Source: Lepidurus packardi (taxonomy: Eukaryota; Arthropoda; Branchiopoda; Notostraca; Triopsidae). From it: a stretch of 64,000 bases of DNA. The notes beneath the pieces were generated by a model. The model saw only the letters and a list, made by a program, of their open reading frames with translations, ran no database searches and had not been told where the DNA came from. Both the position numbers and the translations under genes were made by a program. Shown one piece after another: positions 4,970 to 13,440 of the stretch; positions within the stretch are counted from its first letter, which is position 1, and the number at the start of each line of letters is the position of its first letter. The stretch is taken from the NCBI GenBank assembly GCA_023053545.1, contig JAKZAN010000106.1:38434-102433 (forward strand), written 5' to 3'.

Positions 4970-5707
4970 ATGATTGAACTCAAGGACGTCTCCAAGTGGT
5001 ATGGCCCGGTGCAAGTGCTCAACGGCTGCACCACCAGCATCAAAAAAGGCGAAGTGGTGGTGGTCTGCGGCCCCTCGGGCTCGGGCAAGTCCACGCTCAT
5101 CAAGACCATCAACGCGCTCGAACCCTTCCAAAAAGGCGAGATCTACGTGGACGGCCAAGCCGTGCACGACCCCAAGACCGACCTGCCCAAGCTGCGCAGC
5201 CGCGTGGGCATGGTGTTCCAGAACTTTGAGCTGTTCCCGCACCTGAGCGTGACGGAAAACCTGACGCTGGCCCAGGTGCGCGTGCTGGGCCGCCCGCTGG
5301 ACGAAGCCCAAAAACACGGCCTCAAGTACCTGGACCGCGTGGGCCTGATGGCGCACAAAGACAAGTTCCCCGGCCAACTCTCCGGCGGCCAGCAGCAACG
5401 CGTGGCCATCGCCCGCGCCCTGAGCATGGACCCGATTGCCATGCTGTTTGACGAACCCACCTCCGCCCTCGACCCCGAAATGGTCGGCGAAGTGCTGGAC
5501 TGCATGATGGGCTTGGCCGTCGAGGGCATGACCATGATGGTCGTCACCCACGAAATGGGCTTTGCCCGCAAAGTCGGCAGCCGCGTGATCTTCATGGACG
5601 TGGGCGGCCGCATTCTGGAAGACTGCTCCAAAGACGAGTTCTTCAACCACCCCGAAAACCGCCAGCCGCGCACCAAAGACTTCTTGAACAAGATCTTGGC
5701 GCACTGA
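4970..5707 (+). CDS. gltL: ABC transporter ATP-binding protein, polar amino-acid type
   Basis: The 245-residue nucleotide-binding subunit drives the GltIJK importer. All ABC motifs are intact: Walker [10 protein letters not shown] (about residues 34-42), Q-loop in [10 protein letters not shown], signature LSGGQQQR, Walker [13 protein letters not shown], and the switch His in VVTHEMGFA. The start at 4970 ([12 protein letters not shown]) matches the usual family start; an upstream in-frame ATG inside gltK does not. It is the last gene of the operon and is followed by a strong terminator. Confidence 0.95.
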
Positions 5708-5730
5708 GCCAAGGGCGGCGCAAAACGGCA

Positions 5731-5763
5731 ACGGGCCATGCGGCAACGCATGGCCCGTTTTTT
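5731..5763 (+). terminator. Rho-independent terminator after gltIJKL
   Basis: A perfect 12-bp stem (ACGGGCCATGCG with CGCATGGCCCGT) closes a GCAA tetraloop and is followed by a run of T. It closes the transporter operon and separates it from the HIT/nuclease operon. Confidence 0.9.
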
Positions 5764-5816: not shown

Positions 5817-6193
5817 ATGCCTTGTCCATTTTGCAATCTCCCATCTGAACGAATAGAGTCTTCAAACGATTCGGGAGTTGTGGTCAAGGACGCCTATCCA
5901 GTTTCGCCGGGGCACACCCTGGTCATTCCGCACAGGCACGTCGGTTCATTTTTTGATCTGACCGCTGGCGAGCGAACCGACTTGCTGAACCTGCTTGATC
6001 TGGCAAAAACGAATTTGTTGCGAGATTTAGGCCCGCAGGGTTTCAATGTCGGAATCAACGATGGACCTGTCGCAGGTCAAACCGTTCCACACCTTCACAT
6101 CCACTTGATCCCCCCGCTTTGAGGGTGATGTGGTTGATCCTCGTGGCGGTGTGCGTTGGGTGGATACCCGAGAATGCGAAGTACTGGTCATGA
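5817..6193 (+). CDS. HIT family protein (frameshifted as read)
   Basis: HIT proteins are small nucleotide hydrolases or transferases. The N-terminus has the CPFCN...ER zinc-ribbon-like start, then SPGHTLVIPHRH, and the catalytic triad H92-x-H94-x-H96 in HLHIHLIP. As read, a stop falls right after LIPPL because of the six-C run at 6110-6115. With one C fewer the frame continues as RFEGDVVDPRGGVRWV. One further base removed near 6160-6163 gives IPENAKYWS and a TGA at 6191-6193, the natural HIT ending. That TGA overlaps the ATG of the nuclease gene (ATGA). A TAGAAT box lies 9 nt before the start. This looks like the first gene of a three-gene operon. Confidence 0.8.
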
Positions 6194-7145
6194 CAGAGAT
6201 CGATTCGCAAAAAATCCGGACGTTTTTTGAAGGGATTCGGCGCGCCCCCGGACCAGATGCCGGTTATGCGCCCCACAAGCCGTTGCTATTGCTAATGGCA
6301 TTGGCGCGGGTACAGCGTGGCCTGCCTCGACTTTTTACTTTTACAGAGGTTGAGCCAGAGTTCAAGCAGTTGCTGACGGAGTTCGGTCCGTCGAACGCGC
6401 CGTCAACCAGGAACATGCCCTTTTTGGTTTTTGCGAATGACAGTCAGGGTCAACTGTGGACCTTGCAATTGCAGAGTCACTCGCTCATCATCCTCGGGGC
6501 GCGGCTCCCGGTGTTACAGCACTCCGTCAGCCCGGGGTAGAAGGTGGATTCAGTCCCGAGGTGGAGCGGGCTCTGACGGCAGACCCTGCCTTGGTGGTCG
6601 ATCTTGCTCGACAACTGCTTGATAGCTCTTTCCCTGAGTCCCTACATGAAGACATCACAGCCGCCGTTGGCTTGGACTTGACGGTTCGTGGTCATGGAGC
6701 CCGCGACTTAACGCCGGAATACTTGGTGGGGAATCGACCCCGGAGAGACAAGACTTTCCGGGATCGCGTGTTGCGGGCCTATGAATACCGCTGCTGCATT
6801 TGCGGTTTTGATCTGAGGCTTGGGCACTTGCCTGCCGGCCTGGAGGCTGCACACATTCAGTGGCACACCTTCGGTGGCCCGGACATAGAGCCCAATGGGT
6901 TGTCGCTTTGCGCCTTGCACCACAAACTGTTCGATCTCGGTGTACTGACAGTAGAGCCTGCTTCTTTAAAGGTTCTCTACAGCGAACATGCCCTTGGCGG
7001 GATCTCGTGGGATACTGGTGAACTTCGTTATCACGGCCAAGACTTGCTGATGCCGGTCATAAAGGAGGCCCAGCCTTCATCCCAATTTCTCTCTTGGAAC
7101 TGGCGTAACGTTTTTAAAAAGGAGGCTCGCCGGCTTTCTTCTTGA
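6190..7145 (+). CDS. Phosphorothioated-DNA-binding restriction endonuclease, SBD-HNH type (frameshifted as read)
   Basis: The N-terminal ~100 residues (APHKPLLLLMALARVQRG, then FTEVEPEFKQLLTEFGPSN) resemble the sulfur-binding domain of ScoMcrA/SprMcrA-type type IV restriction enzymes, which recognise phosphorothioate-modified DNA. The C-terminal part is an HNH nuclease: CCICGFDLRLG with its CxxC, EAAHIQWHTFGGPD, then NGLSLCALHHKLFDLG. Enzymes of this family cut near Dnd-modified sites in incoming DNA. The frame breaks between about 6420 and 6460; reading across with one T fewer and one A and one G more restores the family pattern PFWFLRND...LWDLAIAESLA. The start ATG overlaps the HIT stop and the stop overlaps the next start (TTGA). 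No dnd or ssp modification genes are in the window. Confidence 0.82.
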
Positions 7146-8004
7146 AGCTGTGCATTCCGACCTATGGCGACAAATTTGAACTGGACGCAGCTGAGGTGGA
7201 GGCCATCGTTGCTGACTATCTGAAGATGTTGAATCTTGAGTTGGCGGGCCAGGCTTTCAATAAAGCGAGTCATCGTCGCTGGCTTCACATGAAGATTCCA
7301 GACCGGTCACCATCCTCAATAGAGTTCAAGCACGGCAATATCAGTGCAGTGCTCATCGATCTGGGTTACCCCTACATTCGTGGTTACCAGCCAAGGTCTA
7401 ACTACCAGACGCTTTTGCGTGAGGTGGTCGCGTCTCAGCTGACGTGTGCTTCCGACCTTGATGTATTAGCCTTGGCAGCAGTGCAGCAACCAGCCGTCAG
7501 TCCCCTATTGAACGAAATTTCTCAAGTCGAAGTTGATGCCCCTGCGCGCAGGCATGTGGCTGCGGAGCAAGCGCCGAACAGAGGCTACTTGCCCGTCCAG
7601 AGGGACTACTTGGCGCGCGAGTCTGCCAATAGATCGCTTGGTTTGGCGGGCGAGGAGTTCGTGGTTCAGTACGAGCACTTGCGTCTCAGTCGGCTGGGGG
7701 CTCCCCATCTTGCGGATCGTGTTGAGCATGTTTCCCGCACCAAGGGGGACGGTTTGGGATACGACGTCCTATCCTTTGATGTCACTGTCGTGAGCGCTTC
7801 ATTGAGGTGAAGACGACCACCTTTGGCAAAGAGACCCCGTTCTTCGTGTCTCAAAATGAATTGAGCTACTCCCGGGATGCGGGGTGATCAGTACAGGCTT
7901 TGCCGGCTCTTTCAGTTCAGGCAGGTCCGCGAATGTTTTCTTTGCGCGGAGCGCTAGATGCACACTGCAGCCTCGACCCTGTGACCTTCAGGGCATCGTT
8001 TTGA
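7142..8004 (+). CDS. DUF3883 (NOV_C) domain protein, putative PD-(D/E)XK-like (frameshifted as read)
   Basis: The first ~100 residues (ELDAAEVEAIVADYLKML...SIEFKHGNISAVLIDLGYPYI...PRSNYQTLL) are a domain commonly found at the N-terminus of DUF3883 proteins. The C-terminal DUF3883 has GEEFVVQYEHLRL, HVSRTKGDGLGYDVLSFD and, after a break, RERFIEVKTTTFGKETPFF. The D and ExK spacing fits a PD-(D/E)XK nuclease-like fold (inference). Three breaks are needed to read the whole gene: a missing G at 7786-7787, an extra G at 7881-7884 and one near 7930-7933. The end reads MFSLRGALDAHC...FRASF with TGA at 8002-8004. The TTG start overlaps the nuclease stop. DUF3883 proteins are frequent in defence islands; the exact role is unknown. 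Confidence 0.75.
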
Positions 8005-8068: not shown

Positions 8069-9152
8069 ATGACCTCAGCCACCGCCCCCAACCTCGCTGC
8101 AACTGCCGCTGCAACTGCCGCCGCCCAGACCCTGACCATCACCCGCCCCGACGACTGGCACTTGCATGTGCGGGACGGGGAGGCGTTGGCGACTGTGGTG
8201 CCGCACACGGCGGCGCAGTTTGGCCGCGCCATCATCATGCCCAACTTGCGCCCGCCGGTGACCACCGCCGCGCAGGCCGTGGCTTACCGGGAGCGCATTC
8301 AGGCGGCGGTGCCGGCGGGTGTGCAGTTCGAGCCTTTGATGACGCTGTACCTGACCGACAACTTGCCCCCGGCCGAGATCGCTCGTGCCAAGGCGGCCGG
8401 TGTGGTGGCGGCCAAGCTGTACCCGGCGGGTGCGACCACCAATTCCGACGCCGGCGTGACGGACCTGAAGAAAACCTACGCCACGCTCGAAGCCATGCAA
8501 AAGGAGGGCTTGCTGCTCTTGGTGCACGGTGAAGTGACCAGCCCGGACATTGACCTGTTTGACCGCGAAGCGGTGTTCATCGACCAGCAACTCATTCCCC
8601 TGCGCCGCGATTTCCCGGAACTCAAAATCGTGTTTGAGCACATCACCACCCGCGAAGCCGCGCAGTACGTGCAGTCGGCCGACCGCTTCACGGGCGCGAC
8701 CATCACGGCGCACCATTTGCTCTACAACCGCAACCGCGATTTTCACGGGCGGCATTCGCCCGCATTACTACTGCTTGCCCGTGCTCAAGCGTGAAACGCA
8801 CCGCCAGGCCTTGGTGCAGGCGGCGACCGGCGGCAACGCCCGCTTTTTCTTGGGCACCGACAGCGCGCCGCACCCCGCGCATTTGAAAGAGCACGCCAGT
8901 GGTTGCGCCGGTTGCTACACCGCGCACGCCGCCATGGAGCTGTATGCCGAAGCCTTTGACGCGGCCGGCGCGCTGGACCAACTCGAAGCCTTTGCCAGTT
9001 TCAATGGCGCCGATTTTTACGGCTTGCCGCGCAACACCGGCCACATCACGCTGGCCAAAACCACCTGGACGCCGCCGGAGAGCTACACCTTTGGCAACGC
9101 CGAACTCAAGCCTTTGCGCTCGGGCGAAAGCCTGCCCTGGCGCCTGCTGTGA
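8069..9152 (+). CDS. pyrC: Dihydroorotase (frameshifted as read)
   Basis: PyrC catalyses the third step of pyrimidine synthesis, cyclising carbamoyl-aspartate to dihydroorotate with a binuclear zinc centre. Visible ligands are HLHV in [10 protein letters not shown], the Lys in [13 protein letters not shown], the His in LLVHGEV and FEHITT, and the Asp in FLGTDSAPH. The length (~360 aa) includes an Ala/Thr-rich N-terminal extension of about 20 residues. The frame breaks at the TTTT run 8740-8743: with one T fewer, NRD runs into [17 protein letters not shown], the conserved segment. A GACAAT box lies 7 nt before the ATG. The stop overlaps the GTG of the DUF3025 gene, suggesting co-transcription. 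Confidence 0.9.
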
Positions 9153-12855: not shown

Positions 12856-13183
12856 GTGAAGCACGCCAGACCGTCGCTGGTGCAATTTGGGAAACCAAGC
12901 ACTGGAGGAACGTCCGGACTGCACAGGACAGCGTAGGAGGTAATACCTCTCCACCGTGAGGTGAGGATCAGAGCAACAGAGACGAGCCGGTTCAGTCCGG
13001 GTGAAACGGGCAATCTCTACGCGCAGCAATACCAAGTAGGCCAACGTTGATGTGGTTCCGCAGAGTTGGCGGGTAGGTAGCATTGAGCCGGGTGGGTGAC
13101 CCCCGGCCCAGATTAATGACGGTCACGCCGTGTTTTCGCAAGAAGGCCCGGTGCACAAAATCCGGCTTATCGGCGGGCTTCAC
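12856..13183 (+). ncRNA. rnpB: RNase P RNA, bacterial type A
   Basis: This is the catalytic RNA that matures tRNA 5' ends. Universally conserved elements are present in order: GAGGAACGTCCGGACTGCAC (12906-12925), CAGAGACGAGCCGGTTCAGT in the middle, GGGTGAAACGG, AGATTAATGACGGTCACG, and near the 3' end the tRNA-CCA binding loop AAAATCCGGCTTATCGGC. The ends were set by helix P1: GTGAAGCACGCC at 12856-12867 pairs with GGCGGGCTTCAC at 13172-13183 with one mismatch. The length of ~328 nt is normal for betaproteobacteria. Confidence 0.96.
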
Positions 13184-13440
13184 ACTTATTCTTTGAGTTG
13201 GCGGGATGCGCTACATGCCGAGCTAGCGCACGACCTTTGGGAACTTCCCGCATGGCCTGCGAATCTCCCCGCCTTCCTCTTTCCCCACCGCCTTCTGCTT
13301 TCAATGAAAAGTCGTGTCAGCCCGGCAGGACTGAGCCGATTTCGGAGCGAAGCGACATGAGGCACAGGCCTGCCTGCTGACGCGGCTTTGTTTTCGTCTG
13401 CGCTTCTCTTTCTTCGCGACGAGCCGCGCCATATGCAAAG

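Follow-up and report, generated by a model that had tools for sequence, protein, structure and literature searches.

A HIT-family gene directly before an SBD-HNH restriction nuclease gene in a damaged bacterial island

Genes, borders and state of the island

The window analyzed here, a stretch of 64,000 nucleotides, contains an island of three genes on the plus strand, encoding a HIT-family protein, an SBD-HNH nuclease and a DUF3883 protein, lying between gltL and pyrC. The two flanking genes lie outside the system. The left one is an unbroken gltL-type ABC transporter ATPase gene (4970–5707, plus strand) with about 95–96% identity to its counterpart in genome G497, and the right one is pyrC (8069–9146, plus strand), which was matched in two frames owing to one frame break and is 85–88% identical to its five best relatives. 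The strong terminator that the original prediction had placed upstream of the island is real: an intrinsic terminator with a 13-pair stem and a T tail lies 3′ of gltL at 5730–5759 on the plus strand and forms the upstream border, and an exact inverted repeat within it (5731–5758) was found in 0 of 100 shuffled sequences. No sigma-70-like promoter passed a simple scan. The GC content dips to 54–56% across the island vs 64% for the whole window.

The nearest relatives found for the window are Burkholderiales genomes. We compared 30 relatives, chosen by pyrC and viewed with a 1.5-kb flank: gltL adjoins pyrC in 12 of them and was not seen within this flank in the other 18. The gap between the two genes measures 28 to 192 nt in nine of the 12 relatives; the other three have gaps of 477, 818 and 1053 nt. 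The 818-nt gap is that of G497, the closest relative in gltL, and holds an unrelated short reading frame at the gltL–pyrC junction (locus L199), which suggests that the site accepts inserts and that the junction may be an insertion spot. The bacterial contig that carries the window (C95) sits inside an assembly of 108.6 Mb and 344 contigs, and hence derives from a symbiont or a contaminant; besides pyrC, the window also carries RNase P (12858–13185) and glutamate-transport-type genes.

The first gene of the island (5817–6193, plus strand) is a broken gene for a HIT-family nucleotide hydrolase or transferase, which matched Pfam PF01230 with an E-value of 6.7e-20 and retains an intact HIT triad, HLHIH, in its first piece (5817–6119). 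Intact relatives matched it by tblastn at 5820–6113 and 6112–6162, with a further loose match at 6164–6190. Its stop codon overlaps the start of the nuclease gene in an ATGA on the plus strand (6190–6193). The nuclease gene (6190–7145, plus strand), whose open reading frame is interrupted near 6445–6470, encodes a sulfur-binding domain within 6190–6465 and an HNH domain at about 6444–7142, and its stop codon falls inside the putative TTG start of the third gene, in a TTGA on the plus strand (7142–7145). The third gene (7142–8004, plus strand), also broken, encodes a DUF3883/NOV_C protein of the PADLOC family PDC-S36, with an E-value of 1.1e-70 on its first piece; NOV_C itself matched one piece above the cut-off (E 7.3e-8) and another below it (E 0.0095). 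All three genes and both overlaps are thus as originally described.

The window nuclease is, by its sequence, a member of the SBD-HNH family of phosphorothioate-dependent restriction enzymes. Both of its pieces matched NCBIfam NF045808, the model of phosphorothioated DNA-binding restriction endonucleases, with E-values of 2e-16 and 1.3e-59. A profile built from its relatives matched the SBD structures 5zmm, 5zmo, 7ccd, 7cc9 and 8h0l (E 8.7e-20 to 7.2e-7), and the proteins recovered were the ScoMcrA SBD (E 8.7e-20), SprMcrA, SBDHga1 and the HNH enzyme TagI. In an alignment, the window row keeps the H, K and P of the sulfur pocket (H116, R117, here K, and P165 of ScoMcrA) and has M at the position of Y164 and V at that of A168; the roles of the pocket residues are taken from the consulted passages of the ScoMcrA study (PMC6224610), according to which a change of the tyrosine to methionine strengthened binding. 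The second piece matched the HNH domain PF13391 (E 2.2e-8), with the motif AAHIQW...NG...HHK visible.

All three genes are interrupted. By eye and with loose tblastn, two breaks were located in the HIT gene (about 6110–6120 and 6160), one in the nuclease gene (about 6445–6470) and three in the DUF3883 gene (about 7780–7790, 7880 and 7935), so that the obvious single-base breaks of the original prediction exist but are more than the few it had read through. Searches by tblastn with intact relatives gave one clear frame change in each gene of the trio, plus further small ones. A single strict method detected 3 frame switches in the 2.2 kb of the trio, where 6 breaks were seen by eye, vs 7 in 40.25 kb of flanking DNA (36 reading frames aligned to G497, some of them antisense to the true gene), corresponding to a rate in the trio about eight times that of the flanks. 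Since the island is more broken than its flanks, the window copy may be dead or misassembled, and both decay of the island as unneeded DNA and a local assembly problem fit the frame breaks. The reading that the window copy is a pseudogene remnant that does nothing now has, in our estimate, an even chance. The excess of frame switches argues for it, and it is compatible with a HIT plus SBD-HNH cassette as what the copy once was. On the other side, a cluster of draft-assembly errors is possible, as some flanking genes including pyrC are also broken and one break falls at a run of six C. A DNA search of the assembly matched the locus once and found no second copy, and intact relatives of the nuclease exist among the sampled loci.

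Pairing of HIT and SBD-HNH genes across genomes

We surveyed 80 SBD-HNH loci for the families of the island. HIT is present in 25 of them, all ranking within the top 36 by E-value. When three loci on contigs lacking upstream room (L002, L014 and L053) are set aside, 33 closest loci remain, 25 with HIT and 8 without; L016, binned as a deltaproteobacterium, is counted among the latter. The distance from the HIT stop to the nuclease start, taken to the nearest in-frame start codon rather than a mapped start, ranges from −4 to +7 nt in 24 loci; in the 25th, a NERD gene lies in between. The −4 overlap of the window recurs in 7 of the 25. The distances among HIT proteins and among nucleases are correlated (Mantel r 0.59, p 0.0002; 17 pairs, thinned at 8% distance from 24, with L020 and L064 left out for interrupted nuclease frames). 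The spacing of the two genes suits translational coupling, and their sequences have diverged in parallel.

HIT was not found in the 44 more distant SBD-HNH loci, some with little flank; two of these loci, L052 and L067, are from Burkholderiales. A draw of 399 Burkholderiales genomes yielded 13 with a match to NF045808 at an E-value of 1e-20; HIT adjoins the match in 5 of these and is not beside it in the other 8. Three genes of the draw exceed the NCBIfam cut-off, and HIT adjoins all three. This draw and the 80 loci are not fully independent samples, since G001, which holds one of the three, was its center and was chosen for L003, and G237 holds L033. The distant loci, together with the 8 of 33 closest loci and the 8 of 13 genomes without HIT, indicate that SBD-HNH enzymes do not need HIT in general. 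In the consulted passages of PMC7461809, published SBD-HNH enzymes were studied by themselves. No description of a HIT–SBD-HNH or HIT–HNH pair was recognized in the open-license literature, which was represented mostly by titles and the starts of abstracts.

Several other genes were observed near these nucleases. In L021, L027 and L029, a small methyltransferase gene (assigned by a scan in L027 and by clustering in the others) stands directly before the SBD-HNH gene, where other loci have HIT. NERD-type genes recur beside HIT or SBD-HNH (L013:4765-5697, L161:7372-8415, L022:4772-5734 and L029:4155-5126), assigned by a Pfam scan for L013 and by similarity to L013 for the others. L068:3910-6582, in a gammaproteobacterial bin, holds three SBD-HNH-like nuclease genes in tandem.

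By analogy with its family, the nuclease would cut incoming phosphorothioated DNA. DndC was over the cut-off in 0 of 19 SBD-HNH genomes, with one weak match below it, and DndE was found in 0 of 14. A nuclease that targets the modification would be expected to occur without dndC, but the absence lends this reading little weight because no control genome passed the cut-off either; the DndE control was silent too.

Possible nuclease exchange and possible roles of the HIT protein

HIT proteins of this kind occur in 65 of the 399 Burkholderiales genomes, at 69 places; the neighborhoods examined cover 44 regions (45 HIT ORFs) as well as G001 and G007. All of the 75 HIT ORFs checked carry the H-x-H-x-H triad, which a pattern match recovered in 69 and inspection of the sequences in 6. 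Among the 76 HIT rows of a tree, the window HIT falls within a supported group of 51 rows (99/97), which contains every HIT in the tree that is partnered with SBD-HNH, with a downstream HNH gene or with DUF3427; L155 and L156 were counted there as SBD-HNH partners and lie below the NF045808 cut-off. Of the 23 rows that the 399-genome sample contributes to this group, 12 have no recognized nuclease partner, which suggests that HIT also has other roles.

The same group of HIT proteins is associated with further nucleases. A second HNH family supplies the nuclease directly after HIT in seven loci: L160, L161, L162, L170, L172, and a Polaromonas and an Aromatoleum plasmid, the Aromatoleum member matching Pfam HNH_4. 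The N-terminus of this second family is suggested to be homologous to the SBD fold by structure comparison and not by profile comparison, and Foldseek returned no match under an E-value of 0.001 for either predicted structure model. Two sister pairs of HIT proteins (100/99), one of which includes L155, each join a HIT that precedes SBD-HNH to one that precedes the second HNH family, suggesting that the nuclease has been exchanged. In three further loci, HIT is fused to, or precedes, a DEAD-DUF3427 protein. In L190:4020-7646 and L196:6986-10591, a DEAD/DUF3427-type protein of about 1200 residues begins with a HIT domain; the Pfam plan in L190 is HIT, PLD, helicase and DUF3427, where PLD follows HIT and precedes the DEAD/DUF3427 part (L196 was identified by similarity only). 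In L163, the gene overlapping HIT matches PADLOC mREase_IV.

A reversed arrangement, with the HNH gene directly upstream of HIT, was found in three loci (a Hymenobacter plasmid, a Persicobacter plasmid and L195), and the HITs of this order fall outside the 51-row group. HNH_4 was over the cut-off in two of these loci and below it in Hymenobacter; across both arrangements the label rests on Pfam scans of L230, L234 and L195 (over the cut-off) and L233 (below), the other members having been assigned with a profile built in this analysis. Of 247 Bacteroidota genomes, 32 contained a match to the Hymenobacter HIT and 3 a match to the HNH query from the same plasmid. Each of these 3 has HIT immediately after the nuclease and in the same orientation, and their HITs rank as the three best matches. 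Separately, in the Streptomyces phage phiSASD1 (L241:4051-5378), a HIT gene directly follows a gene annotated as PAPS reductase (AANH superfamily).

HIT enzymes cleave bonds to AMP, which is attached to the 5′ end of the DNA in ligase intermediates. We can therefore picture a mechanism in which the SBD-HNH enzyme would recognize and cut incoming phosphorothioated DNA, the HIT protein would remove AMP from adenylated DNA ends, and ligase could then not reseal the cuts at the stripped ends. Such a role would be analogous to that of aprataxin, a HIT enzyme that takes AMP off adenylated DNA ends (PMC4530458); we advance it tentatively, at well under even odds. The occurrence of HIT with several kinds of nuclease, even in one polypeptide with a PLD nuclease, makes a messenger a less probable target of HIT than some feature that all DNA cutting shares.

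A nucleotide-signal reading is nearly as likely, given that the nearest solved HIT structures are Ap4A phosphorylases and FHIT-type proteins (with the L032 HIT as query, no structure among 43 matches was named as aprataxin). According to it, HIT would not act on DNA ends but would destroy a nucleotide signal or cofactor, such as Ap4A or cyclic or linear adenylates, and thereby gate the nuclease or switch it off. With an E-value of 6.3e-11, the window HIT matches the PADLOC model of ThsC, a HIT protein added to Thoeris for which, in the consulted part of PMC8565338, the PADLOC authors proposed such a role. Weighing against this reading, which we hold to be possible at roughly one chance in four, no recurring signal-making enzyme was seen beside the pair in the listed neighborhoods, where family scans covered a minority of the neighbors, and no messenger requirement is known for the SBD-HNH family.

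It is improbable that HIT is a chance neighbor traveling in the same islands with no restriction function. HIT proteins are common, and many are not beside nucleases; set against this are the tight spacing, both gene orders, several nuclease types, the DEAD-DUF3427 fusion, the co-divergence and the repeat in a second phylum. A broader proposal is that HIT may be a portable subunit of modification-dependent restriction in Betaproteobacteria, in which the HIT clade is constant and the nuclease is exchanged (SBD-HNH, the second HNH family or a SauUSI-like fusion), with a parallel pair of reversed order in Bacteroidota, and in which HIT would act on adenylated DNA ends or on an infection-made nucleotide so that cuts stay unsealed. 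This too is a speculative proposal, to which we give about as much credence as to the end-processing step. Type IV restriction enzymes have mostly been regarded as proteins whose task is to recognize a modification and cleave the DNA. A dedicated hydrolase coupled to several unrelated enzymes would, if the proposal holds, contribute a further reaction, after the cut or around it, for example by blocking repair by a phage ligase, and would give a role to HIT proteins otherwise annotated only as 'HIT family protein'. HIT plus the nuclease makes a simple two-gene test case.

The DUF3883 gene and comparison with known systems

The C-terminal domain of the DUF3883 protein is suggested to be nuclease-like by the predicted fold of an intact relative, and DUF3883 has been assigned as an REase domain in print (PMC3710099, consulted in part). 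A search for the name PDC-S36 gave no paper, and DUF3883 is named in seven open-license papers. Of 72,556 plasmid records, 1197 carry related genes, and 881 of those plasmids are typed as conjugative; among the rows listed, the plasmid relatives are about 45% identical, and they are common on enterobacterial and Acinetobacter plasmids. In one plasmid place that was examined (L235:5713-6849), the relative lies among insertion sequences and resistance genes, with no HIT or HNH annotation beside it.

The original prediction took the three genes as one functional unit, and the sampled loci were compared for co-occurrence of the three families in the same order. DUF3883 is near the HNH gene in 4 of the 80 HNH loci, on the opposite strand and facing the nuclease in three of the four, and was not found in the other 76, some of which are short. 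All three families are together only in L013 (1 of 80), on one strand but in an order that differs from that of the window, with the NERD gene between HIT and HNH. Conversely, no HIT or SBD-HNH gene was found near 13 DUF3883 loci from the 399 Burkholderiales genomes, with flanks of up to 7 kb (L147 and L150 are shortened by contig ends, and L153, a relative, has an HNH-like segment in place of NOV_C at its end). The three-gene unit is thus rejected as a conserved arrangement, and the link that had been drawn from the overlaps holds for HIT and SBD-HNH, where it is broader than claimed, but is not supported for DUF3883. That HIT, SBD-HNH and DUF3883 form one composite defense system with DUF3883 as an obligate second nuclease is accordingly very unlikely, despite the start/stop overlaps in the window, the single-strand trio of L013 and a frequency of DUF3883 near SBD-HNH (4 loci) above chance given 13 in 399 genomes, which shared defense islands would also explain. 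By sequence, the conserved unit is the pair, with HIT directly before SBD-HNH, and DUF3883 is an occasional neighbor. The island was probably acquired laterally and is now damaged: in our reading, a two-gene type IV restriction cassette of HIT and SBD-HNH with an adjoining DUF3883 nuclease-like defense gene, in which HIT would be a dedicated enzymatic accessory.

We compared the genes of the island with known systems. Thoeris was considered and rejected for the window, as neither a TIR ThsB nor a ThsA lies beside HIT, whose neighbors are gltL, SBD-HNH, DUF3883 and pyrC; the likeness to ThsC is that of a HIT protein added to a defense system, whereas the partner of the window HIT is a restriction nuclease. 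PDC-S36, which the third gene of the window matches strongly, is a single-gene candidate that is not tied to HIT or HNH. Aprataxin belongs to the same HIT superfamily, and its adenylate chemistry (PMC4530458, consulted in part) would suit a nuclease partner, but the likeness is one of analogy, the closest solved relatives of HIT being of other kinds. With SauUSI-type enzymes, whose domain plan is PLD, helicase and DUF3427 in the consulted passages of PMC3874153, the window shares HITs of one clade that are fused to such proteins (L190 and L196) or overlap them (L163); their nuclease is unrelated to SBD-HNH, and the island of the window has no such gene. Among the closest known groups are the SBD-HNH type IV enzymes (ScoMcrA, SprMcrA and the EcoWI group; NF045808), which the window nuclease resembles in its family match, in its match to the SBD structures and in the H-K and P of the pocket. 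The consulted published passages on this family make no mention of a HIT protein, and it is in the coupling to a HIT gene that many betaproteobacterial members differ from the enzymes described.
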